A stretch of DNA of 64,000 nucleotides, taken from contig NZ_FVZC01000009.1 of the NCBI RefSeq assembly GCF_900166585.1, positions 2,243,444 through 2,307,443 of the forward strand, given 5' to 3'. Positions 12,687 to 42,600 of this stretch are shown here, piece after piece (positions within the stretch are counted from its first letter, which is position 1; each line of letters begins with the position of its first letter). Origin of the DNA: Mesobacillus jeotgali (GTDB taxonomy: Bacteria > Bacillota > Bacilli > Bacillales > Cytobacillaceae). The notes under the pieces were generated by a model that was not told the origin of the DNA, ran no database searches, and was given only the letters and a program-made list of their open reading frames with translations. The translations under genes were made by a program, and so were the position numbers.

Positions 12687-13830
12687 GTGTACGAAGTTGG
12701 CCTGTGTTCTGACAGCTTTTCCTCTTTTATCACCAAAGCTGTCCAAAGGTCGCTGATGTTTGGACAGCTTTTCCTTTCTTAACACCATCGCTGTCCAAAG
12801 TTTGCTGATGTTTGGACTGCTTTTCCTCTTTTATCACCAAAGCTGTCCAAAGTTCGCTGATGTTTGGACAGCTTTTCCTCTTTTATCACCAAAGCTGTCC
12901 AAAGTTCGCTGATGTTTGGACAGCTTTTCCTCTTTTAACACCAAAGCTGTCCAAAGTTCGCTCATGTTTGGACTGCTTTTCCTCTTTTAACAACAAACCT
13001 GTCCAAAGTTCGCTGATGTTTGGACTGCTTTTCCTCTTTTAACACCAAAGCTGTCCAAAGTTCGCTGATGTTTGGACTGCTTTTCCTCTTTTAACTCCAA
13101 AGCTGTCCAAAGTTCGCTCATGTTTGGACTGCTTTTCCTCTTTTAACAACAAACCTGTCCAAAGTTCGCTGATGTTCTGACAGCTTTTCCTCTTTTAACA
13201 CCAAAGCTGTCCAAAGTTCGCTATTGTTTGGACTGCTTTTCCTCTTTTATCACCAAACCTGTCCAAAGGTCGCTGATGTTTGGACAGCTTTTCCTCTTTT
13301 ATCACCAAACCTGTCCAAAGTTCGCTGATGTTTGGACAGCTTTCCCTCTTTTATCACCAAAGCTGTCCAAAGTTCGCTGATGTTTGGACAGCTTTTCCTC
13401 TTTTAACTCAAAAGCTGTCCAAAGGTCGCTATTGTTTGGACTGCTTTTCCTCTTTTAACATCAAACCTGTCCAAAGTTCGCTGATGTTTGGACTGCTTTT
13501 CCTCTTTTATCACCAAACCTGTCCAAAGTTCGCTGATGTTCTGACAGCTTTTCCTCTTTTAACTCAAAAGCTGTCCAAAGGTCGCTATTGTTTGGACAGC
13601 TTTTCCTCTTTTATCACCAAAGCTGTCCAAAGTTCGCTGATGTTCTGACAGCTTTTCCTCTTTTATCACCAAACCTGTCCAAAGTTCGCTGATGTTCTGA
13701 CAGCTTTTCCTCTTTTATCACCAAACCTGTCCAAAGTCGGCTTTTGTTCTGACAGCTTTTCCTCTCTTAACAACAAACCTGTCCAAAGTTCGCTCCGGTT
13801 CCAACAGCTTACTTTTATTCCAAGGAGCAA
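12687..13830. repeat. 52-bp tandem repeat array 1 (21 units)
   Basis: The core CTGTCCAAAG recurs at 12739 and then every 52 bp exactly to 13779, 21 times with no insertion or deletion, with degenerate half-units at both ends. Each unit has a left arm [G/C]CTGTCCAAA, an 11-nt centre (usually GTTCGCTGATG), a right arm TTTGGACAGC or a variant, and a 21-nt linker, mostly TTTTCCTCTTTTAYCACCAAA. The arms can form a stem of up to 10 bp followed on the + strand by a T-rich tract. Right arms come in three forms ending GGACAGC, GGACTGC or CTGACAGC. It lies between the clpX terminator and the region upstream of lonB. I know no function for it. Confidence 0.97.
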
Positions 13831-13853
13831 ACATACAAAGGGGTGTAATAAAT

Positions 13854-13885
13854 CAAAAAATCCCGGTGAAATATTCACCGGGATT
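13854..13885 (-). terminator. intrinsic terminator of clpX
   Basis: Arms AATCCCGGTGAA and TTCACCGGGATT with a short loop and a T-run on the minus strand, just after the clpX stop. It separates clpX transcription from repeat array 1. Confidence 0.85.
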
Positions 13886-13892
13886 GATAATA

Positions 13893-15164
13893 TTAGGCTG
13901 AATTTCTTTCGTCTTTGAGGACTGTTCCGTCTTCAAGGACTAGCTTTGGCGGCATGTTGTTTTCGACTGTTTCCTTCGTGATGATGCATTTTACGATATC
14001 GTCACGTGATGGAAGGTCGAACATGACATCAAGCATGATACCTTCGATAATGGAACGCAATCCGCGTGCTCCTGTTTTGCGCTCGATTGCCTTTTTCGCG
14101 ATCTCGATTAAAGCATCATCTTCAAATTCAAGCTCGACATCGTCAAGCTCAAGCATTTTCTGATATTGCTTCACAAGTGCGTTCTTCGGCTTTGTCAGGA
14201 TTTCTACCAGTGCTTCTTCGTCAAGCGGAGTTAGGCTGGCGATTACAGGGAGACGGCCGATGAATTCAGGGATCAAACCGAATTTCAGCAAGTCTTCAGG
14301 AAGTACTTTTGACAGTAATTCCTTCTTATCTAAATCTTCTTCTTTTTTATCAGAGCCAAAGCCGATTACTTTCTGGCCGAGACGGCGTTTGATGATTTGT
14401 TCGATACCATCGAATGCCCCGCCGCAAATGAACAGGATATTTGTAGTATCAATCTGGATGAATTCCTGATGAGGATGCTTTCGTCCCCCTTGTGGCGGTA
14501 CGCTTGCAACCGTTCCTTCAAGAATTTTAAGGAGTGCCTGCTGTACTCCTTCACCTGAAACGTCCCTCGTGATGGAAGGATTTTCAGATTTCCTTGCAAT
14601 TTTATCGATTTCATCGATGTAAATGATCCCTTTTTCAGCTTTCTCAACATCGTAATCAGCTGACTGGATCAATTTCAAAAGGATATTTTCGACGTCTTCA
14701 CCGACATATCCCGCTTCTGTTAATGATGTAGCATCCGCGATTGCGAATGGAACATTGAGAATACGGGCCAATGTTTGAGCAAGTAATGTTTTACCGCTTC
14801 CAGTAGGACCTATCATAGCAATATTACTTTTTGATAGTTCCACATCATCAATCTTGCTGTTTGAGTTGATACGCTTATAGTGGTTGTAAACGGCTACAGA
14901 CAGGTTTTTCTTTGCCTGGTCCTGGCCAATTACATACTCATTTAGAATATCGCGGATTTCCTGTGGCTTCGGAACATCCTTGAACTCAACCTCTTCTTCA
15001 GTGCCAAGTTCTTCTTCAACAATTTCTGTGCACAATTCAATACATTCGTCACAGATATAGACGCCTGGTCCAGCAACCAATTTTCTGACCTGATCCTGGG
15101 TCTTGCCGCAGAAGGAACATTTGAGTTGTCCTTTTTCGTCATTAAATTTGAACAATGCCTTCAC
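13893..15164 (-). CDS. clpX: ATP-dependent Clp protease ATP-binding subunit ClpX
   Basis: AAA+ unfoldase that feeds substrates to ClpP. The 423-aa product has the N-terminal zinc-binding domain with cysteines at 16, 19, 38 and 41, Walker A GPTGSGKT near residue 119, Walker [12 protein letters not shown], the pore loop GYVGEDV, sensor segments and the IGF loop in [10 protein letters not shown] used to dock ClpP. It precedes lonB in transcription order but is separated from it by a terminator and the repeat array. Confidence 0.97.
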
Positions 15165-15489
15165 CCCTTGAGAACTTCTAAAACATATATAAAGCTGCGA
15201 TTCATAAGCAAACGAACGGTTAAGTAACAGTTTTTCTGCTGCATTCGAGCAGGTATGTATTGCATTGTATCATATTTTGCCAGGGTACAGGAAATAATAA
15301 CCCTCGGCCATTTAAGTTTCGCGCTTATGAATCGAAAAAATATGTACTAAATCATCTTATCCATAATTCAGGCCATTAAATCGGCATATACGAAATTACT
15401 AAAAATTTATGTATGTATATATTGGTGATAAATTGTAGAAAACAAGGCACGATATACTCGCGCCTTGTTTCTATATCTTCCTGATTCTA
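15165..15489. other. 325-bp gap between tig and clpX
   Basis: Contains the tig terminator (15438-15471) and the clpX upstream region. A possible -10 TACAAT lies near 15270 on the minus strand, but I could not pair it with a convincing -35. No gene is visible. Confidence 0.5.
15438..15471 (-). terminator. intrinsic terminator of tig
   Basis: Arms GAAACAAGGC and GCCTTGTTTTC around an internal CG-rich helix, directly after the tig stop. Confidence 0.75.
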
Positions 15490-16779
15490 TTATGCAACAG
15501 ACTTGCTGTTTTCTACAAGGAAATCAACTGCTTTTTTAAGTTGAAGGTCACCTTTGATTCCTTCAAGGCTTCCGCCAAGTGCAGTTTTGATTTGGTCAGC
15601 AGTCATATTGTACATTTCAGACATCTTTTCAAGCTCTGCATTAACTTCTTCATCAGTAACTTCGATGTTTTCAGCTTTTGCGATTGCTTCAAGAGTCAGG
15701 TTAACGCGAACTCGTGTAGCAGCTTCTTCTTTCATTTGTTCACGAAGAGCAGCTTCGTCTTGACCAGAGAACTGGTAGTATAGGTCAAGGTTCATGCCTT
15801 GCATTTGCAGGCGCTGTTCGAATTCGTTAACCATGCGGTCGATTTCAGTATCGATCATTGCTTCAGGAACTTCGATTTCTGCGTTAGCTGCTGCTTTTTC
15901 AACAACAGTGTCACGTTCGAAGTGTTCCTTCTGGTGTGCTTTATCGTGAGCCAGGCGATCTTTGATTTTAGTCTTAAGCTCTTCTAAAGTTTCAACTTCT
16001 TCATCAGCATCTTTTGCGAACTCATCATCAAGCGCTGGAAGTTCTTTGCCTTTGATTTCGTGAACTTTTACTTTGAAAGTTGCAGGCTTTCCTGCAAGCT
16101 CAGCAGCGTGATACTCTTCTGGGAAAGTGACTTCAACATCTTTTTCTTCGCCAGTAGCTGTACCAACCAGTTGTTCTTCGAAACCAGGAATGAATGAACC
16201 TGATCCAAGTTCAAGTGAATAGTTTTCAGCTTTGCCGCCTTCGAATGCTTCGCCATCAACGAATCCTTCGAAATCGATGACAACACTGTCGCCATTTTCT
16301 GCTGTACCGTCTTCTTTAACAACAAGCTCTGCCTGCTTTTCTTGCAATGCTTTTAGTTCGTTTTCAACTTCTTCGTCTGTAACGTTTGTGTCGAATGCTT
16401 CTACTTCAAGTCCTTTGTACTCGCCAAGCTTCACTTCTGGCTTAACAGTTACAGTAGCCTTAATGATAAGGCTCTTACCCTTTTCGATTTGTTCAACATC
16501 GATTTCAGGACGGTCAACTGGCTCGATTCCAGTTTCTTCGATTGCATTTGCATATGCTTCTGGAAGAAGGATATCAATTGCATCTTGATATAAAGACTCT
16601 ACGCCGAAACGCTTTTCGAACATTTGGCGAGGCATTTTCCCTTTACGGAATCCTGGTACGTTAATTTGCTTAACGACTTTCTGGAATGCAGCGTCAAGAC
16701 CTTTATTGACCTTTTCAGCATCAACTTCAATTGTTAGAACCGTTTGGTTCCCTTCTCTTTTTTCTACCTTTGCAGACAT
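15490..16779 (-). CDS. tig: trigger factor, ribosome-associated peptidyl-prolyl isomerase chaperone
   Basis: Binds nascent chains at the ribosome exit tunnel and assists folding. The 429-aa product has the N-terminal ribosome-binding domain with the signature [19 protein letters not shown] (about residues 41-59), an FKBP-type domain around 160-245 ([20 protein letters not shown]) and a helical C-terminal cradle. A GGAGGG site precedes the ATG. It stands alone, between ysoA and clpX, as in B. subtilis. Confidence 0.97.
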
Positions 16780-16936
16780 ACAGTTCCCTCCAACAATAAT
16801 CTATTGTCATCTTCATTCGACGATGAATACTCTTGTTAACCAAGTAATATTCCAGATTAAATGTAAAATAGAATGATTTTTACATAATACAACCACTACA
16901 TTATAACACAGGATTATTTCGTTTCAACAGCCAGGA

Positions 16937-17959
16937 CTATATTATCGGGTAAGAAATTTCTTCTAGCTTCCTGATAAAGTCGAGAACCTGTGCTGTTTCT
17001 TCATGCGGACTGCTGTAAAGATCAGCGAAAGTCTCAAGCGGATCGTCAAATCCATAGTACTCATTGGCAATGAAATGACTTGCTGCAGCCCATGCCGGAG
17101 AATTGCCGACAGGATTTTTATACGGGTAAATCAGGAAGAAATAACGCTCGACCAGGCTCTGTACCTGCTCAAACAATACAGGATCCTCATTTTCTATTTC
17201 ACGGCTTAACAGCTGCAGTACTCCACTGTCCTCGATATACTCCTTGACATCTGGCAGCTGAGCAGGGAAAAACGATTCTTCCCAGCCGAATTTATTTACG
17301 GCAAGCTCCTCTGCGTAACCCTGTTCTCTTAATATATTGACCAGCATTGTTTTTAAAAAGGGATGACCCTCTTCTGACCGTGTAAATTCTTTAATAATCT
17401 TGATAAAAGGACGGATATTTACATTCGCAAGACTTGCTAAAGCCATCACCTGTTGATTGAGGTCGTCCGAGCCAAACAGATCAAGCGCCTGTTCTTCTGG
17501 TTGTTCATCATCTATCTCTGCAATTTCATTTCTTTCAATTCCATCGATCATCTTTCTGCCAAACTCGAGCATTTTGATAAAATGCTCGTGTTTATCTGCG
17601 GGAATCTCCCTTTCTTCCAAAAGAGCTTCAATAGTAGTTACCATTTCACTGTACTCATTCAGCTGGACGAGGATCATTAAGTACATTTCAATTACCTGTA
17701 TGTAATCACCCAATCCGCTCTTAAGCATCTCTGCCGCTATATCTTTGGCTTGCTTCAGGTTTCCCGTTTCGTAATGGGCAAGTATAAGCCCAACATATAT
17801 ATCGCTGTTCTCAGGATCGTGATCCAGGGCCTGCTCAAGATATTGGATAGCATCCCTGTACTTTTGCTGTTTCATATAATCGAGGCCTTTTTCCAAAAGG
17901 CGCTTTTCCAGGCCAGGAAACAGGATCACATTATCCTTATTTGAATCCCGCTTTTTCAT
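16937..17959 (-). CDS. ysoA: TPR-repeat protein YsoA
   Basis: Cytoplasmic protein of 340 aa with tetratricopeptide-like helices near the N-terminus (GLDYMKQQKYRDAIQYLEQA, then ENSDIYVGLILAHYETGNLK). The rest is helical and acidic, of unknown role. Position between tig and leuD matches B. subtilis ysoA. The ATG at 17959 is preferred: AAGGCGG is 8 nt upstream of it, whereas the in-frame ATG at 17965 would lie almost on top of that site. Confidence 0.85.
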   Translation of the reverse strand: MKKRDSNKDNVILFPGLEKRLLEKGLDYMKQQKYRDAIQYLEQALDHDPENSDIYVGLILAHYETGNLKQAKDIAAEMLKSGLGDYIQVIEMYLMILVQLNEYSEMVTTIEALLEEREIPADKHEHFIKMLEFGRKMIDGIERNEIAEIDDEQPEEQALDLFGSDDLNQQVMALASLANVNIRPFIKIIKEFTRSEEGHPFLKTMLVNILREQGYAEELAVNKFGWEESFFPAQLPDVKEYIEDSGVLQLLSREIENEDPVLFEQVQSLVERYFFLIYPYKNPVGNSPAWAAASHFIANEYYGFDDPLETFADLYSSPHEETAQVLDFIRKLEEISYPII

Positions 17960-18046
17960 ACACATACCGCCTTACTTTATAAAAAATAACAATATTGTTT
18001 TCCCAGATGCATCTTCAGCTTTTTAGAAAGTGTAGCATGATTTCAT

Positions 18047-18084
18047 GAAAAAACAAAAAGATTCACAAGTGTAACTTGTGAATC
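18047..18084 (-). terminator. terminator of the ilv-leu operon
   Basis: Arms GATTCACAAG and CTTGTGAATC with a TTACA loop, then a T-rich tail on the minus strand, about 75 nt after leuD. Confidence 0.85.
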
Positions 18085-18159
18085 AATCAATTTTATAAAT
18101 GCAGTATTAATAAGCTTAACTGGTAGCCTGCAAAAAAACAGCTGATGCTTATAAGAATG

Positions 18160-18756
18160 TTAACATCTTGTTGAAGCAGGATTATCCTCATATTCCTTGA
18201 TATGCTCTTCAAGCTGGAGGGTCAATTCAATCTCATCCCAGCCGTTCAGGAGCATATTATACCAATATGGGTGAATCTCAAATTCTGCTTTGAAGCCTTC
18301 TTTGTCATAAACACATTGGTGTTCAAGTGAGACGGTCAGTTCGTACACCTGACCGGCTGCTTTCTTGAGTAAAGAGGCCACCACCTCTTCAGGCAGTACA
18401 ACAGGGAGGATTCCGTTTTTCAGGCAGTTTTGCTTGAATATATCTGCAAACGACGGGGCAATCACCACCTTGAATCCATAATCCTGCAATGCCCATGGCG
18501 CATGCTCCCTTGATGAGCCGCAGCCAAAGTTTTCATTCGCGATCAAAATAGATGCTCCCTGGCTGGCAGGGTGGTTGAGTTCAAACCTTTCATCTAATTC
18601 ACCGCTTGGCTTGAAGCGCCAATCATAGAACAAATACTGCCCAAAGCCGGTTTTCTCGATTCTTTTGAGGAATTGCTTTGGAATGATTTGGTCTGTGTCC
18701 ACATTTGTCCGATCCATTGCAGCAGCATTACCTGTCATTTCTTTAAAACTGGCCAT
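18160..18756 (-). CDS. leuD: 3-isopropylmalate dehydratase small subunit
   Basis: Forms isopropylmalate isomerase with LeuC, converting 2-isopropylmalate to 3-isopropylmalate. The 198-aa product has NVDTDQIIPKQFLKRIEKTG near the N-terminus and the substrate-loop segment NFGCGSSREHAPWAL. AAAGGAG precedes the ATG. The gap to leuC is 134 nt, larger than is usual for this pair; no gene or clear hairpin is visible in it. Last gene of the ilv-leu operon. Confidence 0.97.
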   Translation of the reverse strand: MASFKEMTGNAAAMDRTNVDTDQIIPKQFLKRIEKTGFGQYLFYDWRFKPSGELDERFELNHPASQGASILIANENFGCGSSREHAPWALQDYGFKVVIAPSFADIFKQNCLKNGILPVVLPEEVVASLLKKAAGQVYELTVSLEHQCVYDKEGFKAEFEIHPYWYNMLLNGWDEIELTLQLEEHIKEYEDNPASTRC

Positions 18757-18890
18757 TTGAGACTCCTTTCATCGTAAAATGGGATTTTGGCAAAATGACC
18801 CGAAATTCTTCTTCCTCGAAACATTTTTCACTTCTTTAGTAATGATTTTCATATTAATATCGTTCAAGAAACCGGGCTAAGAAGTAAAAC

Positions 18891-20300
18891 CTAAACTGGA
18901 ACTCCGGCCAGTGTCCTGACATCAACAAAGTGTCCGTACAGCGCCGCAGCAGCAGCCATGGCCGGACTGACTAAATGTGTCCGTGCCCCCGCGCCCTGCC
19001 TGCCCTCGAAGTTTCGATTCGACGTGGAGGCGCAATGTTCTCCAGCTGGTACAATATCAGCATTCATGCTCAGACACATACTGCAGCCTGATTCTCTCCA
19101 TTCAAAACCTGCTTCGATAAAGGTTCGGGCAATGCCTTCTGTTTCTGCAGCCATTTTGACCTGCTGGGACCCGGGTACGACAATCGCATATACTCCGGCA
19201 GCGACTTTCTTTCCTTTGATGATCTGGGCAGCTGCGCGTAAATCCTCTATCCTTGAATTCGTGCAGGAGCCGATGAATACCCTGGAAACACGGATAGCAG
19301 TGATAGGCTGGCCTTCCTCAAGTCCCATGTACTCAAATGCCCTTTGGACGGCTTTCTTTTCGGCCTCGGTTTCACATTCAGCTAAATAAGGCACTCGGTG
19401 CGTTACCTCTGCAGTCATAGCAGGATTGGTGCCCCAGCTGACCATCGGAGCAATTTCGTTTCCATTTACCATGATCACATCATCGTGTTTAGCATCCTTA
19501 TCCGAAGCGAGCTGCTGCCATTCCAGGATTTGATCGAGAAACTCATCTCCCTTTGACACGTATTTCCTTCCATTTAAATACGCAAAAGTCTTTTCATCTG
19601 GAGCAACAATTGAAGCTTTTGCCCCGCCTTCAATTGACATATTGCAAATGGTCATTCTCTCTTCCATCGACATATTCCTGATCACATCACCGCAGAATTC
19701 GATTACATATCCGGTTCCGAATTTGACCCCATATTTACTGATGATGAAGAGGATCACATCCTTGGCACTGACTCCAGGCCCAAGTGAGCCTGAAACCTCA
19801 ATTTTCAATGTTTTAGGCTTTGCCTGCCAGAGTGTCTGGGTTGCGAGCACATGCTCCACCTCACTTGTTCCAATCCCGAAGGCAAGGGAACCGAATGCAC
19901 CGTGTGTCGATGTGTGGCTGTCTCCGCAGACGATGGTCATTCCTGGCTTCGTCAATCCCAGTTCTGGCCCGATGACATGGACGATACCCTGTTCAGGGCT
20001 GTCAAGATCCGCTAGCTGTATGCCAAACTCCAGACAGTTGTTTCTCAACGTGTCCATCTGATTCCTGGCCACCTGGTCATTGATTTCCCGTCGATTAATG
20101 GTAGGCACATTATGGTCCATCGTCGCAAATGTCAGATCAGGCCGCCTTACTTTCCTATTTTTCATCCTCAGCCCTGAAAATGCCTGCGGGGAGGTTACTT
20201 CATGGACAAGGTGCAGGTCGATGTACAAAAGATCCGGCCTGCCCTCTTCCATATGGACGACATGCTTCTCCCAAATTTTTTCTATGATCGTTTTACCCAA
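18891..20300 (-). CDS. leuC: 3-isopropylmalate dehydratase large subunit
   Basis: Catalytic 4Fe-4S subunit of isopropylmalate isomerase, 469 aa. Cluster cysteines appear in [12 protein letters not shown] and in [25 protein letters not shown] is also conserved. The best start is a TTG at 20300, giving [15 protein letters not shown] as in homologues, with GGAGG five nt upstream at 20306-20310. The longer in-frame start at 20324 would place that ribosome site inside the gene. Confidence 0.95.
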
Positions 20301-20333
20301 AATATCCTCCCCTTCCTTAATCATTATTCTTTT

Positions 20334-21476: not shown

Positions 21477-24039
<2,563 letters not shown>

Positions 24040-26409: not shown

Positions 26410-26712
26410 AAAAATAAAAAAGCCCATCCATCTCCATATGCCTGGATTTCCCAGGCAAAGGGATGGAATAGGCTTTATCTCCTTGTTCCACGGTACCACC
26501 CTTCTTCACGCTTTACGCGTGCGCTCGTGATTTTGATAACAAGTGCGGGGCACTCGGCCAGTTTTACTTGGATTCCTTTCAAACTGGCGCTCCAGGGTGA
26601 GTTCATTCAATACGGCATCACCGGCTCCCAGCTAACCCGGCTCTCTGTGCATGCTGATTGCATTGAATTACTTGTCCCTGTCTTTGCTTTATCTATATTC
26701 AATTAGACTAGT
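26410..26712 (-). promoter_or_regulatory. T-box leader, probably leucine-responsive, ahead of ilvB
   Basis: On the minus strand the T-box core AAGGGTGGTACCGTGG is at 26490-26505. A Stem I region with GACAGGGACAAGTAA lies about 170 nt upstream, and a specifier region reads GAACTCACC. The CTC triplet at 26599-26601 corresponds to leucine, as for the B. subtilis ilv-leu leader. Downstream, a stem built on AAAGCC and GGATGGGCTTTTTT (about 26410-26475) is the intrinsic terminator. Uncharged tRNA-Leu would favour the antiterminator and expression of ilvBHC-leuABCD. Confidence 0.9.
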
Positions 26713-33849: not shown

Positions 33850-33897
33850 TTTCTTTATTATAAATTTTTTTTTGTTGTTTGGAAATAAAAACAGGTT

Positions 33898-33938
33898 AAA
33901 AACAGAAAGGAAGGATTGGGAGACCCAATCCTTCCTTG
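33898..33938 (-). terminator. terminator of the extracellular nuclease gene
   Basis: Arms AAGGAAGGATTGGG and CCCAATCCTTCCTT with a short loop, then a T-rich tail on the minus strand. Confidence 0.85.
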
Positions 33939-33943
33939 AATAA

Positions 33944-36220
33944 TCAGCTGGCATTTTTATAGCCGCACGCTCTTGCTTTTTTATCGTGTCCCAAGTGTTT
34001 TCCGTTATTGTCCATTACCTTTCCTTTTGCGTTTCCGCTTTGCTCCGGACACTGCTTTTGCTTAAGGTCGATTTGAACCATGACAGGATCATGGTCACTT
34101 GCCCGCCCATGCTCCTCCATATACATAGAATTAATATTGATGATATCCGCCTCACTGCTGTCAGCAAGATGATTGGATACCAGAATATGATCAAGTACCT
34201 GAGAATTTCCCTGAAAATTATAAGTGAACCTTTCTTCTGCAGGCAATGTTTCAATCATGTTTGTTAATTGCCCGTTTTCCAATGCCTCAATTGGTTGGGA
34301 ATACTCAAAGTCGTTCAAATCCCCAAGAACAACGACATTTGCTTCAGGATCCTGTGAGTATATCCCTGCGACAAATTCGTTCAGCAATTTAGCAATCTCA
34401 ATTCTTTTTGCCTCGCTATCAAGGACTGGCGGCTGGATTTTGCCGAATAATGGGGTGTCTCCGCCTTTTGAGTTAAAATGGTTGGCGATGACGACTACAT
34501 CTTCCCCTTTGAATTCAAACTCTGCAGCCAATGGTTTCCTTGTATCTTCAAAAATAGGATTCTGCGGGTCGATTCTACCCGGATTCAATGTCAGACCGCC
34601 ATTTTCATAGGCAACAGCTTCTGTCGAAGTGCCTTTAGGTGCCTCTTTTAACTGTACACGTTCCGGATTATATAGGTAGCCCACACGAATGTTTCCGCCC
34701 GGCGCTCCTCCATCCTGGTTATACTCTGGGGCAATATCAGTCCAGCTGTATGCAGGTCCGCCCTGCGCAGTAATTTCATCGATCAAAGCCTGGTAGCTCA
34801 TCGATGCATCTGAAGAACCGCTGGCTGTCTGGCCGTCATTATCTTGTACTTCAACAAGACCGATAATATCAGGCGATTTCAAGTTGTTAATTATCGAATC
34901 TGCAATTCTTTTAGTCTTTGCAGCATCTGTTTTTGCTGAGAAGTTTTCAATATTATAGCTGGCAATTGTCAATTTATCCTTTTCAGTCTCTAATTTCGTC
35001 AAATCTTCAACAAATTGGGCTTCAGTCAACTCTGGAAGCGTATCCTGATCCACCAAGATTTTGAAATTTGAGAAGCTGTAACTTACTACACCAGTGACTA
35101 GTCCATTAAAACGGTCTCCTGTTTTCGCAACAAAGTCACGATTGATGAGCAGGAACAGCCTTTCAGGATTGCTGCTTTCCTTAGTCAGCAAGATTCCGCC
35201 TTGCGGGCTGTATACCTTTCCATCAACCTTATTGGCGATGACAGGCACCTCGCCATATTTCTGCGGTCCGATGACCTGGGGACTTTCAACTCCGATTCTC
35301 ATACCCTCGAGACTTTCATAAAAGTCGATGCCATCCTCGGCAGGATCAAAGACACCGAATTGATCATTATCAATGATTTGTGATGGCGGAATTCTGTCTT
35401 GGCCAATGACGACGGCATCAGGCAGCTTGTTGCCAGAAGCAATCTTAGTAACTGCAGTCGCGTTTATTTCAGTCATTGCCAGGTCAGTCTGCAGCTTTTC
35501 ACTGTAGCCATCAAGAACCCATTCCTTCACAAGGCCATCAACTTTAACCGAATCACCTACAGCAAGACCATGAGACTTTTGGTAAACATATACCGCTTCC
35601 GAAGTGTTTGGGTTACCATCCTCTTCTGGTTCCTGCATAAAAAACGCGCTGCTGCCATCAATTTTTGTTACAATGCCTGTAACTCCGGCAACATTTTGGT
35701 CCTTATAGGGTGAGGAATGACCTTCTCCCTGAATATCATGGATTTTCAAACCTGTAACAGCGGGTGGCTCAGGCTCTCCCTGGTTTCCGCCGCTGTCCTC
35801 AGCGAAGCGCATAGCTGTAGGCGACTTAAGGCCTGGTACGGTGAAATATGCTTGAAGTGAACCTGTCACCTGCACTTTTTTACCGATAATATCTGGATTG
35901 GAAGATAAACCAAATGAATTCCTGAAAGAGGTACTGATCTGGACAGGCAGAATTTTGCTTGCATCCTTTTCATCAGGATTGTCTGCCAGTGCAAGATTAT
36001 AATCATTTCCGAATGGAGCTTCAAAATCATAGGCATTGGTGCCTGTAGTATGTGCTACTATGTATCCTTCAACTGTTCCCGTACCACTGTTATTTTCTAT
36101 CGCCTGCTGGACAGTCAGGATTGGTTCAGCTGATGTTTGGCCAGGGAAAGGTGAAACATAGCCCATAAGCAGAATAACCGCTGTCAGCAAAGAAAAAAGT
36201 TTTTGACGAAAGTTCCCCAC
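33944..36220 (-). CDS. secreted endonuclease/exonuclease/phosphatase-family nuclease (ExeM/YhcR-like)
   Basis: A 758-aa secreted protein. A signal peptide covers about residues 1-31 (ending GQTSAEP). OB-fold-like domains follow: about 36-140 (GTVEGYIVAHTTGTNAYDFE) and 155-260 (GVTGIVTKIDGSSAFFMQEP). The catalytic EEP domain runs from about 415: ASYNIENFSA, GLVEVQDNDG, IANHFNSKGGD, VVLGDLNDFEYS, LDHILVS, RASDHDPV. All metal and catalytic motifs look complete. Likely degrades extracellular DNA or nucleotides. It ends in a basic tail with no LPXTG motif or membrane anchor, although a sortase gene lies just upstream. Absent from the corresponding B. subtilis site, so accessory. Confidence 0.88.
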   Translation of the reverse strand: MGNFRQKLFSLLTAVILLMGYVSPFPGQTSAEPILTVQQAIENNSGTGTVEGYIVAHTTGTNAYDFEAPFGNDYNLALADNPDEKDASKILPVQISTSFRNSFGLSSNPDIIGKKVQVTGSLQAYFTVPGLKSPTAMRFAEDSGGNQGEPEPPAVTGLKIHDIQGEGHSSPYKDQNVAGVTGIVTKIDGSSAFFMQEPEEDGNPNTSEAVYVYQKSHGLAVGDSVKVDGLVKEWVLDGYSEKLQTDLAMTEINATAVTKIASGNKLPDAVVIGQDRIPPSQIIDNDQFGVFDPAEDGIDFYESLEGMRIGVESPQVIGPQKYGEVPVIANKVDGKVYSPQGGILLTKESSNPERLFLLINRDFVAKTGDRFNGLVTGVVSYSFSNFKILVDQDTLPELTEAQFVEDLTKLETEKDKLTIASYNIENFSAKTDAAKTKRIADSIINNLKSPDIIGLVEVQDNDGQTASGSSDASMSYQALIDEITAQGGPAYSWTDIAPEYNQDGGAPGGNIRVGYLYNPERVQLKEAPKGTSTEAVAYENGGLTLNPGRIDPQNPIFEDTRKPLAAEFEFKGEDVVVIANHFNSKGGDTPLFGKIQPPVLDSEAKRIEIAKLLNEFVAGIYSQDPEANVVVLGDLNDFEYSQPIEALENGQLTNMIETLPAEERFTYNFQGNSQVLDHILVSNHLADSSEADIININSMYMEEHGRASDHDPVMVQIDLKQKQCPEQSGNAKGKVMDNNGKHLGHDKKARACGYKNAS

Positions 36221-36390
36221 ATTGATTCCTCCTCAGATTATATCCGACAGAATAAGATCCCTGTCAGAAGGAATATAACATGGATATTTCAGCTATTCCA
36301 TGCAGTGTATGTTAATTATTCCTAAATTTAGAAAAATGAATACATAGTATGAAAACGCTTTATATTAAAATAGTTACCATACTCCCGCAC

Positions 36391-36431
36391 AAAGAAAACC
36401 AGCCAGGACTTTTGGCCCTTCCTGGTTTTTT
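36391..36431 (-). terminator. probable terminator of the sortase gene
   Basis: AAAACCAGGA and TCCTGGCTGGTTTT form an imperfect stem with a T-run, immediately after the sortase stop. Confidence 0.65.
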
Positions 36432-36437
36432 GCTAGA

Positions 36438-37019
36438 TTAATTGCCCTCAGCTGTCCTCCTGGCATAAATGATATAACGGTAAGGAGCATCGCCTATATA
36501 ATTGAAAGGGTAACAGGTGGTCAGAATAAGTTCTTCTTCAGTATGTTGGAGAGTAATGATGCTAGTGTCTTCAGCACTTACAATCTTTGTTGCAATGATT
36601 TCGTATGTATAGTCCCCATAAGGCATTTTCATTGTCAAATGATCCCCCAATTTCAGGTCACCTGCTTTTCGGAAAACTGTATCACGATGGCCTGAGAGGA
36701 CGATTTGCCCTTTTTCATCCGGGTAAAAGGAGTCTTTATAATGGCCTACTCCCTTGTCCAGATCATCCGGGTCCGTCCCTTCTACAATCGGCAGCTCCGC
36801 TTCAATTCTTGGGATTACCAGCAATCCTGATGCATCGCCAGTATCTGGCTTGAACTCTTCCTTTTTCATCTTCAGATGATTATCTTTAACTAAATCTCTG
36901 GCGGCTGCAAGGGAAATCATCTCCTGGCGTTTGATATCCCATAATTGGAACACACCAATGGTGAGAATGACGATCCCGCTGAGGATAATTACAATAGCCA
37001 ATATTTTTGGTATTTTCAT
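36438..37019 (-). CDS. class D-type sortase
   Basis: Membrane-anchored transpeptidase of 193 aa with one N-terminal transmembrane segment (about residues 5-26). Catalytic triad residues are visible: His111 in LSGHRDTVF, Cys169 in LTTCYPFNYIG and Arg181 in APYRYIIYARR. The TLQHT region and length fit class D (YhcS-like) sortases. AGGAGCGG precedes the ATG. In B. subtilis YhcS partners the nuclease YhcR; the adjacent nuclease here resembles YhcR in part, but no sorting signal is seen in it. Confidence 0.9.
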   Translation of the reverse strand: MKIPKILAIVIILSGIVILTIGVFQLWDIKRQEMISLAAARDLVKDNHLKMKKEEFKPDTGDASGLLVIPRIEAELPIVEGTDPDDLDKGVGHYKDSFYPDEKGQIVLSGHRDTVFRKAGDLKLGDHLTMKMPYGDYTYEIIATKIVSAEDTSIITLQHTEEELILTTCYPFNYIGDAPYRYIIYARRTAEGN

Positions 37020-37092
37020 ATACCGCTCCTGATTAAGTCTTTAGTATCAGTATACCAAGATGCCCTCTTGTATAAAAAGCACTTTTTTAAAA

Positions 37093-37127
37093 TGAAAAAA
37101 CCTCCTCTTCCAAATGGAAAAGGAGGC
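37093..37127 (-). terminator. intrinsic terminator of sdhCAB
   Basis: Arms CCTCCTTTTCC and GGAAGAGGAGG on the minus strand with an ATTT loop and a T-run. It lies beyond the structured element that follows sdhB. Confidence 0.8.
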
Positions 37128-37168
37128 TGTATTTTTTATAAAGAATAGCTTTTTACCCTTAGATTATT

Positions 37169-37293
37169 GTCCAAGTTCAGCGCCTAGCCAGTTTTCATCC
37201 TGGAGTTGGCTTCCTCAAGTATCTTGCGAGAAGCATTAGCTTTGAGCAGCTCGAGTCGCTTATTGGGGCTGACCAAGGCGCTTGCGCTTTTCT
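37169..37293. repeat. possible dispersed structured repeat 3' of sdhB
   Basis: About 125 bp with inverted ends: GTCCAAG...GCGCCTAGCC on the left and GGGGCTGACCAAGGCGC then TTGCGC on the right, with CTCGAGTCGCTT between. I recall similar blocks dispersed in many Bacillaceae genomes, but I could not check. It abuts the sdhB stop exactly and would form part of the sdh mRNA 3' end. Confidence 0.5.
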
Positions 37294-38055
37294 TTATACT
37301 TGGTCGCTTCCGAAGAAGTTCTTGAAAGATTGGAATGTTGTATCACGGTTCAAGGCAGCGATTGATGTAGTCAACGGAATGCCTTTAGGGCATGACTGAA
37401 CACAGTTCTGGGAGTTACCGCAGTTTGCAAGTCCTCCGTCTCCCATGATCGTTTCAAGTCGTTCTCCTTTGTTCAAAGCACCAGTTGGGTGAGCATTGAA
37501 CAGGCGAACCTGTGACAATGGCTGCGGTCCGATAAAGTCAGACTTGCTGTTTACGTTCGGGCAAGCCTCAAGGCACACACCGCATGTCATGCACTTGGAT
37601 AGTTCGTAAGCCCATTGGCGCTTTTTCTCAGGCATACGAGGTCCCGGTCCAAGATCGTAAGTTCCATCGATAGGAATCCAAGCTTTAACTCGCTTCAGTG
37701 AATCGAACATGCGGCTGCGGTCAACCTGCAGGTCACGGACAACCGGGAATGTTCTCATAGGCTCCAGTCTGATTGGCTGCTCCAGCTGGTCTACAAGCGC
37801 AGAACATGACTGGCGCGGACGCCCATTGATGACCATTGAGCAAGCACCACAAACCTCTTCAAGGCAGTTCATATCCCATGCGATTGGAGTAGTAGCCTCT
37901 CCTTTTGCATTAACAGGATTACGGCGTATCTCCATAAGCGCGGAAATCACATTCATATTTGGGCGGTAATCTAGTTCAAACTCTTCCTGATAAGGGGCTG
38001 AATCAGGAGTATCCTGGCGGCTGATGATAAAACGGACAGTTCTTTTCTCTGACAT
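37294..38055 (-). CDS. sdhB: succinate dehydrogenase iron-sulfur subunit
   Basis: Electron-transfer subunit of complex II, passing electrons from SdhA flavin to the SdhC haem/menaquinone site. The 253-aa product has the plant-type 2Fe-2S motif CLEEVCGACSMVINGRPRQS and C-terminal clusters CMTCGVCLEACPN and CVQSCPKGIPL. It follows sdhA by 5 nt. The stop codon lies directly against a structured repeat element. Confidence 0.97.
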   Translation of the reverse strand: MSEKRTVRFIISRQDTPDSAPYQEEFELDYRPNMNVISALMEIRRNPVNAKGEATTPIAWDMNCLEEVCGACSMVINGRPRQSCSALVDQLEQPIRLEPMRTFPVVRDLQVDRSRMFDSLKRVKAWIPIDGTYDLGPGPRMPEKKRQWAYELSKCMTCGVCLEACPNVNSKSDFIGPQPLSQVRLFNAHPTGALNKGERLETIMGDGGLANCGNSQNCVQSCPKGIPLTTSIAALNRDTTFQSFKNFFGSDQV

Positions 38056-38060
38056 GCTTA

Positions 38061-39818
38061 TTACTCCCCTTTCTTCTTGGAATAATCTCGCTTACGCGGT
38101 TGGATTAATGAAGTATCGACATCTTCATAATGGAATGCTGGCGCAGAGTTAGCATCAACAAACTTCGCCATTGTTGTTTTCAGGAAGTCCTCATCGTTAC
38201 GGTCAGGGAATTCCGGTTTATAGTGAGCTCCACGGCTTTCATTACGGTTATATGCGCCGATCGTGATAACACGGGCAAGCTGGAGCATGTTTTGAAGCTG
38301 ACGTGTGAATACGGCGCCCTGGTTGCTCCATTTAGCTGTATCATTAATATTGATATTTTTGTAACGCTCCATCAATTCAACGATTTTCTCATCTGTTTTC
38401 TTCAGTCTGTCATTGTAACGAACAACTGTGACATTGTCTGTCATCCATTCGCCAAGCTCTTTGTGAAGGACATATGCGTTCTCTGTTCCATCCAATGACA
38501 TTACATTGTTCCACTTCTCCTGTTCCATTTTGACAGCATCATCAAACAGAACTGAAGAAACAGCATCCGCGCTCTTTTCAAGGCCATTGATGTAACGGAT
38601 TGCGTTAGGACCAGCGACCATTCCGCCATAGATTGCAGACAGCAGGGAGTTGGCCCCAAGACGGTTCGCACCGTGCTGTGAGTAATCTACTTCACCAGCT
38701 GCAAACAGGCCAGGAATATTTGTCATCTGATCATAGTCAACCCACAGTCCACCCATAGAATAGTGAACAGCAGGGAAGATTTTCATAGGAACTTTTCTTG
38801 GATCGTCTCCCATGAATTTTTCATAAATTTCAATGATTCCGCCAAGCTTGATGTCAAGCTCTTTAGGATCCTTATGTGAAAGGTCAAGATATACCATGTT
38901 TTCGCCGTTGATGCCGAGCTTCTGGCTTACGCACACATCGAAGATTTCACGTGTAGCGATATCACGAGGCACAAGGTTTCCGTAAGCTGGATATTTCTCT
39001 TCAAGGAAATACCAAGGCTTACCGTCCTTGTAAGTCCATACTCGTCCACCTTCTCCACGTGCAGATTCACTCATTAGGCGAAGTTTGTCATCACCAGGAA
39101 TTGCCGTTGGGTGAATCTGGATGAATTCTCCGTTAGCATAATATCCGCCCTGCTGATAAACGATTGCAGCAGCTGAACCCGTATTGATTACTGAGTTCGT
39201 TGTTTTACCGAAAATGATACCAGGTCCACCAGTTGCCATGATGACGGCATCAGCAGCAAATGATTTGATTTCCATTGAAGTCAGGTTTTGTGCTACCACC
39301 CCGCGGCAGACACCTTCCTCATCCTTAACTATTCCAAGGAATTCCCATCCTTCATACTTTGTGACCAAACCAGCCACTTCATGGCGGCGGACTTGCTCAT
39401 CCAAAGCATAAAGAAGCTGCTGTCCAGTTGTCGCACCAGCAAATGCTGTACGGTGATGCTGTGTACCTCCGAAACGGCGGAAGTCCAGCAATCCTTCAGG
39501 TGTACGGTTGAACATTACACCCATACGGTCAAGAAGGTGGATGATTCCTGGTGCTGCTTCAGCCATTGCTTTTACAGGCGGCTGGTTTGCAAGGAAGTCA
39601 CCGCCATAAACTGTATCATCAAAGTGCTCCCAAGGAGAGTCACCTTCACCTTTTGTATTTACTGCGCCGTTAATTCCGCCCTGTGCACAAACAGAGTGGG
39701 AACGTTTTACCGGCACAAGAGAAAACAGTTCAACAGGAGTTCCTGTTTCTGCAACTTTTATAGTAGCCATTAAGCCAGCCAAACCGCCGCCGACTACGAT
39801 AACCTTACCTTTACTCAT
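38061..39818 (-). CDS. sdhA: succinate dehydrogenase flavoprotein subunit
   Basis: Catalytic FAD subunit oxidising succinate to fumarate. The 585-aa product has the N-terminal FAD-binding VVGGGLAGLMATIKVAE and the SVCAQGGINGAVN segment carrying the region of covalent flavin attachment. Substrate-site motifs IQIHPTAIPGD, SESARGEGGRVW and SQHGANRLGANSLLSA are also present. Middle gene of sdhCAB. Confidence 0.97.
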   Translation of the reverse strand: MSKGKVIVVGGGLAGLMATIKVAETGTPVELFSLVPVKRSHSVCAQGGINGAVNTKGEGDSPWEHFDDTVYGGDFLANQPPVKAMAEAAPGIIHLLDRMGVMFNRTPEGLLDFRRFGGTQHHRTAFAGATTGQQLLYALDEQVRRHEVAGLVTKYEGWEFLGIVKDEEGVCRGVVAQNLTSMEIKSFAADAVIMATGGPGIIFGKTTNSVINTGSAAAIVYQQGGYYANGEFIQIHPTAIPGDDKLRLMSESARGEGGRVWTYKDGKPWYFLEEKYPAYGNLVPRDIATREIFDVCVSQKLGINGENMVYLDLSHKDPKELDIKLGGIIEIYEKFMGDDPRKVPMKIFPAVHYSMGGLWVDYDQMTNIPGLFAAGEVDYSQHGANRLGANSLLSAIYGGMVAGPNAIRYINGLEKSADAVSSVLFDDAVKMEQEKWNNVMSLDGTENAYVLHKELGEWMTDNVTVVRYNDRLKKTDEKIVELMERYKNININDTAKWSNQGAVFTRQLQNMLQLARVITIGAYNRNESRGAHYKPEFPDRNDEDFLKTTMAKFVDANSAPAFHYEDVDTSLIQPRKRDYSKKKGE

Positions 39819-39926
39819 CGTGACTCACTCCCTTAAATCCAAGTCTGTCTTTCATATCCCTAAAAAAGTAATTCTATTTCTCAGCCTAAGCTGCACATTA
39901 TTTGTTCATTTATTTCAGAAATGAGC

Positions 39927-40535
39927 TTATACAAACGCCAGGATCGCGCGGACTCCAACAATGGAAAGCGCAATGAAAACCCCGATTGTGATATAAGTAG
40001 AAATCACTTGTGAACGTGGTGTAACAGTGATTCCCCAGCTTACGAGGAAAGACCATAATCCGTTTGCGAAGTGGAAAGTGGTAGAAATTACACCAATTAA
40101 ATAGAACCATAGCATGAATGGAGTTGATAGAATAGTCTCCATCATCTGGAAGTTAACATCTGCACCAAAGGCTGCGGCAATACGTGTTTCCCATACATGC
40201 CATGCCACAAAGACCAATGTGATGACCCCGGATACACGCTGGAGCATGAACATCCAGTTTCTGAAATGGCCATATTGGCCTATATTGTTTTTAGCTGTAA
40301 AAGCAATATATAGACCGTAAATTGCATGGAATAATAATGGTAAGAAGATAATGAAGATTTCTAGAAAGTACCTGAAAGGCAACTGCTCCATAAAATGTGC
40401 TGCGTTATTAAATGATTCTTCTCCCCCTGTAGCAAAATGGTTTACTACAAGGTGCTGCGTTAGGAATAGACCTACTGGAATAACACCCAGTAAAGAATGC
40501 AGCCTCCGCCAATAAAACTCTTGTCTACCTGCCAT
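39927..40535 (-). CDS. sdhC: succinate dehydrogenase cytochrome b558 subunit
   Basis: Membrane anchor of complex II, di-haem cytochrome b of the Bacillus type, 202 aa with five hydrophobic segments. Conserved histidines occur in FLTQHLVVNHF, LFHAIYGLY, VAWHVWETR and TFHFANGLW. The ribosome site is G-rich (AGGGGGG). In B. subtilis this leader is a target of the iron-sparing sRNA FsrA; the G-run would suit a C-rich sRNA here too, but that is inference. Confidence 0.96.
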   Translation of the reverse strand: MAGRQEFYWRRLHSLLGVIPVGLFLTQHLVVNHFATGGEESFNNAAHFMEQLPFRYFLEIFIIFLPLLFHAIYGLYIAFTAKNNIGQYGHFRNWMFMLQRVSGVITLVFVAWHVWETRIAAAFGADVNFQMMETILSTPFMLWFYLIGVISTTFHFANGLWSFLVSWGITVTPRSQVISTYITIGVFIALSIVGVRAILAFV

Positions 40536-40990
40536 AAGTATACCCCCCTGAAATTTGGCCGTGATGTCCAGGCTTCTCTCCCCATCCCTATTAACCTAAG
40601 AGACTGATTAAACCTAACATCAAAAAAAAATAAGTATTTCTTACAATTATGTGACATGTTCATTTTACTCCCATCATAATAGAGCGTCAAGAAAACGGAT
40701 ACATAAAAATGCTTATATAAATAAAATTTTTAAAATATATTGGTATTGTAAAAATCCCACTTTTTAATCATTCCAAGCCCTGAAAGGTTATATTAAAATA
40801 ACACTATTGCCCTTTTACAACCATTTAAAAAAATAAATTTTTGAAATTCCAAGTTACGGGTATGGTATAAACATGGAAAAAAATTATAAAATCTTTAAGG
40901 AAACAAAATTTAACAGTCTTTAATTTTTACCATCGCCGGTTGTTTTCTTGGCAAATTGTTTATAATAGATTAATAGAAAGAGGGGAGAAC
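40536..40990. other. 455-bp divergent control region between sdhC and yslB
   Basis: Holds the sdhC leader of about 120 nt, the sdh promoter at 40662-40690, and an AT-rich stretch leading to a TATAAT-like element near 40960 for yslB. No gene is visible. Confidence 0.6.
40662..40690 (-). promoter_or_regulatory. sigma-A promoter of sdhCAB
   Basis: On the minus strand TTGACG (40685-40690) and TAAAAT (40662-40667) are exactly 17 bp apart, giving a leader of about 120 nt before sdhC. Confidence 0.65.
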
Positions 40991-41443
40991 ATGAGCGAAA
41001 CAACAACTTCTGAACAAAAGACCGAAAGCAAGCCTCTTGCTGTTTCTGCTTTCGGATATGAATTGATCAGGGACGAGCTTTTAGCGGAACTGCTCGGCAA
41101 AGACACACCTGAAATCCTTTACTGGGCCGGCAAAAGGCTCGCGCGCAAATATCCATTATCAAGCCTGGAGGAGACGATCCACTTTTTCCTGGAAGCGGGC
41201 TGGGGTCATCTCACCGTCAAAGAAGAATCACGAAAAGAAATGCTGCTCCAACTCAGCAGCGAACTGATTTCCTCCCGACTCAAAAAAAATCCAAACGCAA
41301 CCTTCCAGCTCGAAGCGGGATTCATCGCCCAGCAAATTGAACACCAGAAAAAAGTAACAGCAGAAGCCTTCGAACACCCGAATAAAAAATCATTGAAAAT
41401 CCTGTTCACAATCAAGTGGGATAAGACTGATATTATAGAGTGA
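40991..41443 (+). CDS. yslB: YslB-family (DUF2507) protein
   Basis: A 150-aa cytoplasmic protein of unknown function. The family core is visible in AFGYELIRDELLAELLGKD, then YWAGKRLARKYPL and FFLEAGWGHL. The ATG at 40991 has AGAGGGGAG upstream; the frame is open from 40940. It sits between sdhC and lysC as in B. subtilis, transcribed away from sdh. It may bind a hydrophobic ligand like related V4R-type folds, but that is not shown. Confidence 0.9.
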   Translation: MSETTTSEQKTESKPLAVSAFGYELIRDELLAELLGKDTPEILYWAGKRLARKYPLSSLEETIHFFLEAGWGHLTVKEESRKEMLLQLSSELISSRLKKNPNATFQLEAGFIAQQIEHQKKVTAEAFEHPNKKSLKILFTIKWDKTDIIE

Positions 41444-41497
41444 ATGGAAAAAGCAGAAGCTTTAACAAGATACTGTTTTATAATGCCAGCTTTATCT

Positions 41498-41560
41498 TAA
41501 GGGTTACTGCGCACGAATTTGGAAAAAATTTCGAAATTCGGTCGCAGTAACCTTTTTATT
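41498..41560 (+). terminator. intrinsic terminator of yslB
   Basis: A long imperfect hairpin with arms AAGGGTTACTGCG and CGCAGTAACCTTTTT, and inner CGAATTT/AAATTCG pairing, followed by a T-run on the + strand. Confidence 0.9.
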
Positions 41561-41649
41561 GTGGCTGGAATTTGAGCTATTACGGTTTTTCTAGCGCAAT
41601 ACATTTTGTTTGCCCTCCATACTGATACAATGACCAATTTAGAGGCACA

Positions 41650-42600
41650 TACTAATCTTCGGGCACATGTTCCTCTTACTTGTTACCGAACCCTTTTGTT
41701 CCTCCACTTTTCGGGCACATGTTCTTCTTACTTGTTACCGAAATCTTTTGCTCCTCCACTTTTCGGGCACATGTTCCTCTTACTTGTTACCGAACCCTTT
41801 TGCTCCTCCACTTTTCGGGCACATGTTCCTCTTACTTGTTCCCGAAACCTTTTGTTCCTCCACTTTTCGGGCACATGTTCCTCTTACTTGTTACCGAAAT
41901 CTTTTGCTCCTCCACTTTTCGGGCACATGTTCCTCATACTTGTTCCCGAAATCATTTGTCACTCCACTTTTCGGGCACATGTTGCTCTTACTTGTTACCG
42001 AAATCTTTTGCTCCTCCGCTTTTCGGGCACATGTTCTTCTTACTTGTTACCGAAATCTTTTGCTCCTCCACTTTTCGGGCACATGTTCCTCTTACTTGTT
42101 CCTCCACTTTTCGGGCACATGTTCCTCTTACTTGTTACCGAAATCTTTTGCTCCTCCACTTTTCGGGCACATGTTCCTCTTACTTGTTACCGAAACCTTT
42201 TGCTCCTCCGCTTTTCGGGCACATGTTCCTCTTACTTGTTACCGAAATCTTTTGCTCCTCCGCTTTTCGGGCACATGTTCTTCTTACTTGTTACCGAAAT
42301 CTTTTGTTCCTCCGCTTTTCGGGTACATGTTCCTCTTACTTGTTACCGAAATCTTTTGCTCCTCTGCTTTTCGGGCACATGTTCTTCTTACTTGTTACCG
42401 AAATCTTTTGCTCCTCCACTTTTCGGGCACATGTTCCTCTTACTTGTTACCGAACCCTTTTGCTCCTCCTTTTTTCGGGCACATGTTTCTCATACTTGTT
42501 ACCGAACTCATTTGCTCATCCACTTTTTCGGCACATGTTCCTCTTACTTGTTACCGAAACCTTTTGTTCCTCCACTTTTCGGGCACATGTTTCCCTTATG
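41650..42600. repeat. 52-bp tandem repeat array 2 (19 units)
   Basis: CGGGCACATG recurs at 41660 and then every 52 bp to 42580, 19 times, except for one 36-bp step between the units at 42076 and 42112 caused by a 16-bp deletion. Unit: left arm TTCGGGCACA, 13-nt centre TGTTCCTCTTACT, right arm TGTTACCGAA (TGTTCCCGAA in two units), then a 19-nt linker ATCTTTTGCTCCTCCACTT. Arms match 8 or 9 of 10. All three + frames stay open across the array because the unit has no stop and 52 is not a multiple of 3. It lies between the yslB and lysC terminators, so neither gene should transcribe it. Confidence 0.97.

Follow-up and report, generated by a model that had tools for sequence, protein, structure and literature searches.

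Tandem 52-bp dyad arrays in Mesobacillus jeotgali share one register and follow the direction of replication

Introduction

What could hold tandem repeats to one unit length and one internal layout when their sequences differ? The question is raised by two arrays in a 64,000-nucleotide stretch of the 4.63-Mb Mesobacillus jeotgali genome (assembly GCF_900166585.1, contig NZ_FVZC01000009.1, positions 2,243,444 to 2,307,443; G000:C9:2243444-2307443 in our numbering), hereafter the window. Array 1 (12674..13794) lies between clpX and lonB, and array 2 (41658..42598) between the convergent genes yslB and lysC. A sequence-only reading of this DNA had taken both for members of one helically phased element class with 52-bp palindromic units, either measured by a binding protein or built by a copying system.

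Repeats of this size have been a puzzle ever since they were catalogued, being constant in length, lacking a common sequence and lacking a known function. Subirana and Messeguer (2021; PMC8161180) collected 4029 tandem repeats from 176 Bacillus genomes, and 1886 of them have units of 51-53 nt. These "52 nt tandem repeats" are species-specific in sequence and of unknown function, and the authors suggested that a protein might polymerise along the DNA or that small RNAs might be involved; their Table 1 names B. selenatarsenatis and two relatives, which current record titles place in Mesobacillus. The arrays studied here belong to this class. Like the Bacillus repeats, they have a period of 51-53, are non-coding, form several families per genome and carry conserved words together with their reverse in one repeat: both window arrays lie between called open reading frames (ORFs), the unit is not a multiple of three, the long ORFs across array 2 are 156-bp readings of the 52-bp repeat, and short words with their reverse complements are common to the arrays of one genome. 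What goes beyond the published description is a dyad register on an odd axis, half-sites that vary little, an orientation set by replication and the persistence of array sites with a change of family. In the titles and opening abstract lines of the papers listed by our searches we found no report of a replication orientation or of a common dyad register; the 2020 paper in J. Bacteriol. by the same authors could hold one.

Results

Tandem Repeats Finder (TRF) gives array 1 a period of 52 with 21.6 copies and 90% match. Array 2, likewise of period 52 and about 18 units, is reported as two rows of 8.5 and 9.7 copies, joined at a short 36-bp unit near 42060-42136. The succession of arm, centre, arm and linker read from the sequence is 10-11-10-21 in array 1 and 10-13-10-19 in array 2, each adding up to 52, so that the period and the layout described by the sequence-only reading are confirmed. 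The arms of array 1 stretch to 12 bp (AAGCTGTCCAAA / TTTGGACAGCTT), and the two 10-mers of array 2 match at 8 of 10 positions. One dyad of array 1 at 12839..12876 (C9:2256282-2256319) reads AAAGCTGTCCAAA, 11 bp, TTTGGACAGCTTTT and includes TGTC-19-GACA (27 bp); one of array 2 at 41660..41688 (C9:2285103-2285131) reads CGGGCACATGTT...ACTTGTTACCG and includes GGGC-19-TACC (27 bp). Allowing at most 3 mismatches, the array 1 palindrome has 131 and 159 matches on the two strands of the genome and its reversed control none; the array 2 element has 18 and 70, its control none, and its family occupies six loci in the own genome. The two arrays had been called unrelated in sequence; they are not wholly so, since both carry a KGKY word (TGTC and GGGC, respectively) at the same distance from the dyad axis.

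This distance turned out to be a property of many families. In the family of array 1 (F1), CTGTC and GACAG are 19 bp apart in 722 places, and any other gap from 0 to 48 occurs at most 7 times; with flanking bases included, the gap is 19 in 745 cases, 18 in four, 20 in two and 23 in one. Other families with a fixed gap are AGGGT-19-ACCCT (22 cases), CGGGCA-18-TACCG (44) and GTCCGAA-11-TTCGGAC (210), and when aligned on the dyad axis these families place TGTC, GGGC or GGGT at positions -13 to -10. The resulting layout is an odd dyad axis, a variable centre of about 9 bp (offsets 0-4), half-sites at offsets 5-17 in which the KGKY word (TGTC, GGGC, GGGT) begins 13 bp from the axis, and a variable, purine-biased linker. 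The half-sites are AAASCTGTC (AAA-S-CTGTC, that of F1), CGGGCACA, AAGGGTAC and others. Among 129 unit consensi the best inverted repeat exceeded the 95th percentile of shuffles in 87%, the unmatched centres of the best dyads ranging from 5 to 25 bp according to the array. Single-linkage clustering of 145 Mesobacillus units gave ten clusters, one of which holds 122 units; with the member having the best dyad as representative, KGKY stood at -13 in six (TGTC, TGTC, GGGC, TGTC, GGGT, GGGT), while the other four comprised one with CGGC, one whose dyad was scored on an even axis, and two singletons without the word.

The 27 consensi in Table 1 of PMC8161180 served as an outside test, for which the KGKY word had been settled in advance of looking at the table. 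In 20 of them the inverted repeat beat 95% of shuffles (p<=0.05), and 18 of these 20 have an odd axis. In these 18, KGKY occurred at offset 13 on at least one side in nine (on both sides in five), compared with 0-2 at each of 18 other offsets. The nine are partly kin (two are from thermoamylovorans, litoralis 42 goes with coagulans 8, and the oceanisediminis consensus resembles a Mesobacillus family), which leaves about six or seven independent consensi.

Pairing within F1 dyads is interrupted at a fixed place. In 87 F1 arrays, for which offsets 10-14 pair by construction, offset 15 is non-complementary in 65, and offsets 16 and 17 pair in 84 and 87. A non-pairing position beside two pairing ones fits half-sites read as duplex better than a stem. 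Covariation across the F1 stem (Watson-Crick total 4.52 vs 4.20 permuted, p=0.02; positions 1-3 and 8 above permutation, 7 and 9 below) was not used, being confounded by subfamilies.

The half-sites are also the least variable part of the unit. We compared 30 arrays that had not been chosen by pattern (window, even sample of the own genome and the closed congener G004; at least 3.5 copies and 4 in-phase units). Mean within-array diversity was 0.086 in the half-sites, 0.139 in the centre and 0.169 in the linker; half-sites were below the linker in 22 of 30 arrays (p=3e-4) and below the centre in 23. Array 1 shows the same trend weakly (half-sites 0.073, linker 0.087). A wider set of 101 arrays with at least 5 units each is partly ascertained, since it takes in loci chosen by the F1 pattern (L078-L157, 80 of 112 stretches found, used for diversity in this set alone); here diversity was 0.047 at offsets 10-13, 0.067 at 14-17, 0.089 at 5-9, 0.199 at 0-4 and 0.182 in the linker, and the 4-bp core varied less than the linker in 89 arrays.

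The orientation of the arrays follows replication. Taking the leading strand from the sign of the GC skew nearby, measured outside arrays, we found it to be the purine-rich one in 61 of 63 arrays from the own genome, G004 and four further genomes; counted separately, this held for 36 of 38 rows (one a duplicate), 19 of 19 in G004 and 7 of 7 distinct arrays in G265, G292, G169 and G080. L038, which duplicates part of L022, was dropped from the counts, as were L266 and L291, which repeat L276 and L265. In G004 array polarity flips along with the skew between 2.19 and 2.40 Mb. The two exceptions are L022:2-715 (0.38) and L036:6686-7220 (0.43, with a local skew of only 0.011). The leading-strand purine fraction of arrays averaged 0.636, compared with 0.524 for 373 spacers without arrays; it reached at least 0.6 in 76% of arrays vs 3.2% of spacers. 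The array 2 motif CGGGCACA...TTACCG lies on the lagging-coded strand at all six of its genome loci (at most 3 mismatches; nearest sampled skews), and of 37 arrays 14 carry GACAGGTT on the leading strand, whereas one carries its complement there. Orientation by the neighbouring genes was considered and is not supported by the arrays between head-on genes: all six arrays between two genes that both run against replication follow replication, four of them (L010, L034, L193, L195) at a skew of only 0.007-0.030, which makes the assignment of the leading strand less certain. It is this polarity that links the arrays with replication. In the window the GC skew with arrays excluded is -0.114 and the + strand purine fractions of arrays 1 and 2 are 0.37 and 0.29, in agreement with the pyrimidine-rich + strand linkers noted earlier. 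These linkers fit an account that the sequence-only reading had not proposed: both arrays, purine-rich on the - strand (the leading-strand reading of array 1), lie on one replichore and are oriented by replication.

Unit length was surveyed in 28 evenly spaced 20-kb stretches of the own genome (560 kb). TRF gave 27 non-overlapping arrays of 2.8 copies or more; the period is 51-53 in 18 of them (51 in four, 52 in ten, 53 in four), and none has 50 or 54; at 3.8 copies or more the share is 12 of 16. At least two of the nine remaining arrays (L016, period 24; L048, period 26) are inside 52-bp arrays. The scan therefore favours 52 over its neighbours, as had been predicted, and the broad spread of lengths set against that prediction did not appear; with 51 and 53 also common, the unit is better given as 52 +/- 1. 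A looser cut of 1.9 copies gave 23 arrays of about 52 or 156 bp, from which we extrapolate to some 190 in the genome. In 20 stretches of 20 kb from G004 there were 19 arrays with periods of about 52, 104 or 156. Successive F1 elements are 52 bp apart in 1025 cases, 51 in 17 and 53 in 15; other distances, up to 170, occur in 1-5 cases each where seen. The proposed helical phasing remains arithmetic, since insertions or deletions of 10-11 bp are not favoured: a distance of 42 occurs once and 62 never, vs 1025 for 52.

Among relatives, the array 1 pattern has at least 16 matches (both strands) in 17 of 21 congeners and 0-8 in the other four, and 0-2 in each of 130 genomes from other genera of the family. 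Its loci include records titled Mesobacillus subterraneus, M. selenatarsenatis and M. boroniphilus. Mesobacillus-type arrays are also present in a record titled Chryseobacterium sp. ISL-80 (L090, L099-L101, L106 and others), a title that is probably a misnomer. Of the 21 congeners, 15 have a TRF-detected array at the clpX-lonB site, with between about 2 and 22 units; G001 keeps a degenerate piece only, seen by eye, and no TRF array was detected in G009, G011, G017, G018 or G019. At yslB-lysC, compared across 21 loci of which one (L059) ends before lysC, TRF-detected 52-bp repeats are present in 11 and belong to two families, a GGGCACA type in eight and a TTATCCGCACAT type in three; some TRF-negative species keep diverged units by eye. 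One 104-bp array was seen in 60 kb of G018. A two-gene tree puts G018, G019 and G011 outside the clade of the other array-rich species (support 83/92) and G017 inside it (100/99), the placement of G009 on an aberrant branch being unsure; because G017 branches within the array-rich clade, it looks like a case of array loss. Arrays that differ in sequence but have a TGTC...GACA dyad, and agree in period and polarity, were seen in two further families of the order and in one further genus of the own family; one of them (L286, 51 bp) has an inner gap of 18, not 19. The view of one element class is supported, also beyond the window: odd-axis dyads in the same register at 51-53 bp recur in other families of the own genome and in the closed congener, as well as in some of the published consensi and a few genomes from other genera and families.

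Some of these loci hold further structures. In the yslB-lysC spacers of several species (L051, L053, L058, L060 and L065) a hairpin of the type GGGCACAG...CTGTGCCC directly follows the yslB stop; in L051 and L058 it measures 27 bp, GGGC-19-GCCC, when counted by eye, and the array unit could conceivably have a single-copy relative or ancestor here. A 52-bp array of 21 copies from another genus of the family (L215:7580-8775, TTGTC-19-GACAA) is preceded by a terminator-like AAGCTGTC...GACAGCTTTTTT directly after a stop codon, and a terminator may have seeded this array. G011 has tandem repeats of another kind, formed of tRNA-like sequences at periods of 150 and 136 bp (L216:1-1124).

Genes around the arrays were called by a simple longest-ORF rule and not by a gene finder. 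Array 1 adjoins clpX (13893..15164, - strand; Pfam zf-C4_ClpX and AAA_2), with a terminator-like hairpin at 13859..13885 (-) directly after the gene, between it and the array; on the other side lies an ORF at 10788..12455 (-; Lon_C and AAA), which we take to be lonB from the gene order of B. subtilis. Array 2 adjoins a DUF2507 gene at 40991..41443 (+), presumably yslB, which is followed at 41502..41557 (+) by a hairpin GGTTACTGCG...CGCAGTAACC and TTTTT, found by eye outside the array, missed by the terminator scan and likely to be the yslB terminator. A second terminator-like hairpin, at 42705..42728, separates array 2 from the convergent aspartokinase-type gene at 42740..43972 (-; AA_kinase and ACT), presumably lysC, upstream of which lies a lysine riboswitch (44132-44309, -). 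This riboswitch is ordinary, as is a T-box leader elsewhere in the window (26456-26693, -).

Could the arrays carry a gene of their own? In the own genome we compared the 143 ORFs that flank arrays, two on each side, and found few similar pairs and no recurrent family. The closest pair (174 and 171 aa, 88% identical), presumably DoxX-type membrane proteins, lies one or two genes from two 53-bp arrays; the next (43% identical), which we take to be NERD-domain proteins, directly adjoins two arrays of different families (as left neighbour of L037 array 6254 and right neighbour of L048 array 10307). Two such pairs are no pattern.

Discussion

The arrays may be understood as tandem two-part DNA-binding sites, read by a putative protein, that would mark the chromosome or give it shape with respect to the replication fork; we give this reading a probability of about 0.4. 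Exact spacing, a register common to different sequences and half-sites less variable than the centre are the trace expected of a dimeric DNA-binding protein. Such a dimer, or a related set of dimers with drifting specificity, would bind the half-sites; dimers side by side along one array would build up a long complex of protein and DNA, marking or shaping the chromosome in the gaps between transcription units, and the linker would give the complex its direction relative to the fork. That a binding protein measures the geometry is helped by the low half-site variation and is still something we infer. The persistence of the sites (15 of 21 at clpX-lonB, 11 of 21 at yslB-lysC) and the position of the terminator-like hairpins of clpX and lysC outside the arrays also count for binding sites.

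A number of results weigh against this reading. Eight of the 30 arrays lack lower half-site than linker variation, array 2 among them, whose second part shows the reverse (half-sites 0.099, linker 0.044, loop 0.060). KGKY is absent at offset 13 in nine of the 18 published consensi, although one of these, alkalitelluris 71, was scored on its linker axis, and TGTC-19-GACA stands on the unit's other axis. Polarity is weaker at the pattern-chosen named loci (63 of 78; 45 of 54 at |skew|>=0.05), where many exceptions have about as many purines as pyrimidines, and the low skew at four of the six head-on arrays tells in the same direction. Different families in the same genome would require different binding specificities, and recombinational homogenisation could also hold lengths constant. 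The array system is probably dispensable, given that no arrays were detected in 238 kb of sampled stretches from G011, G017 and G019. Finally, no candidate reader has emerged: the gene families tried for the predicted co-occurrence with arrays (Y1/RAYT, RTP and HrcA paralogues) do not track them. For HrcA, one hit of HrcA size (361 aa) occurs in each of 17 genomes, array-rich or array-poor alike, with an extra short hit in G008 and G009; G001, G016, G018 and G019 have no match at E 0.001, a cut that a true gene may just miss, full-length hits scoring about 4e-4 to 1e-3.

HrcA was of interest for its operator. The controlling inverted repeat of chaperone expression (CIRCE) occurs as single sites at heat-shock operons, not as arrays. 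The part of PMC1676014 used here gives CIRCE, the HrcA operator, as TTAGCACTC-N9-GAGTGCTAA, a 27-bp dyad with a 9-bp variable centre; this 9-9-9 plan is equal in size to that of the array dyads. Unlike CIRCE, the arrays use other half-sites, and TTAGCACTC is not one of them. Direction relative to replication has known carriers in FtsK-orienting polar sequences and SpoIIIE recognition sequences, which are short polar signals skewed to the leading strand. The SpoIIIE sequence GAGAAGGG is in none of 37 arrays and GGGNAGGG in one, and on these two words SpoIIIE sequences were rejected as an account of the linkers. In the sampled sequence of the own genome outside arrays, GAGAAGGG is skewed 25:5 toward the leading strand. 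RTP Ter sites were rejected as well, PF02334 exceeding its cut-off in 0 of 21 genomes and giving weak matches below it in 6.

Replication itself might build such arrays with no function attached. Palindromes would fold as hairpins on the single-stranded lagging template, slippage or template switching would grow arrays only where the purine-rich strand is the template, and polarity and constancy would be by-products. We hold this to be somewhat unlikely, and much agrees with it: polarity tracks replication and not the neighbouring genes; the lagging template has the sequence of the leading strand, so the hairpins would form there; congeners differ in copy number at one site, with values between about 2 and 22; shuffles fold less well than one 104-nt piece of array 1 (z for DNA -7.1 and -5.1, for RNA -7.2 and -4.5); and mirrored mismatches at offsets 5-17 of the leading strand are more often G-T (32, expected 42.0) than A-C (14, expected 44.7). 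A piece of the same length from array 2, however, folds weakly (RNA z -2.9 and -1.8; DNA -3.0 and -2.6), and such growth leaves unexplained why variation is lowest in the half-sites, why the register and the 51-53 bp recur across sequences and species, and why 65 of 87 F1 arrays have a non-pairing position at one fixed place.

An element acting as RNA seems to us unlikely. Read-through transcripts with hairpins and single-stranded linkers would bind a protein such as Hfq or Rho, or an mRNA, or the pyrimidine-rich RNA of the head-on direction would be a Rho-dependent or intrinsic stop. Linkers are indeed U/C-rich in that direction, one array of another genus starts with a terminator-like hairpin after a stop codon, and the part of PMC8625621 used here reports 52-nt repeat matches in RNA-seq reads of B. 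coagulans. The arrays are not oriented by the direction of flanking genes, though, the arrays have no Rfam match at the gathering threshold, and an RNA hairpin has no obvious need of an exact 19-bp gap. In a scan of the two window arrays terminator-like sites stayed near shuffle level (2 and 3 vs 1.2 and 1.6), one inside each array, and arrays of intrinsic terminators were rejected. So were anti-Shine-Dalgarno decoys, a thought prompted by CTCCTCC in the array 2 linkers: GGAGGA is on the leading strand in only 9 of 37 arrays.

Least credible, and in our view very improbable, is a dedicated copying or mobile system building 52-bp units in the manner of REPIN/RAYT or CRISPR adaptation. Many loci with a fixed unit, the array 2 family at six loci among them, would suit it, and HUH elements have a polarity on the lagging template similar to that of the arrays. 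Repetitive extragenic palindromic (REP) and REPIN elements with RAYT transposases are many-copy intergenic palindromes, not 52-bp tandem arrays, and RAYT fails as a builder: Y1_Tnp is absent in the array-rich G016 and G020 (and the array-poor G019) and present in the array-poor G011 and G017. The own genome has four Y1 transposase genes of near-equal scores (G000:C9:369882 and 692304 on +, 1664926 and 2035810 on -), each of which, going by the closest skews sampled, lies on its replichore's leading strand. CRISPR arrays are periodic, intergenic and partly palindromic too; here the whole 52 bp is repeated and there are no unique spacers. No match to array 1 turned up in phages or plasmids and none to array 2 in plasmids, and the copying system suggested by the sequence-only reading is left without support.

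Returning to tandem binding sites as the preferred reading, a wider form of it is tentative and in our estimate possible rather than probable: several lineages of Bacilli would carry chromosome-wide, replication-polar arrays of protein-binding sites built on one dyad (KGKY, 19 bp, RMCM, at a pitch of 51-53 bp), direction-marking or nucleoid-organising, with a putative DNA-binding protein of their own whose half-sites drift and whose geometry is kept. The register and the replication orientation make the old puzzle of the 52-nt repeats testable, since they name the bases to mutate, the orientation to flip and the relatives to compare. If no protein reads the arrays, they would be a clean example of a satellite that grows by the strand being replicated; if one does, it would represent a new way of marking replichore direction or shaping the nucleoid in Bacilli.

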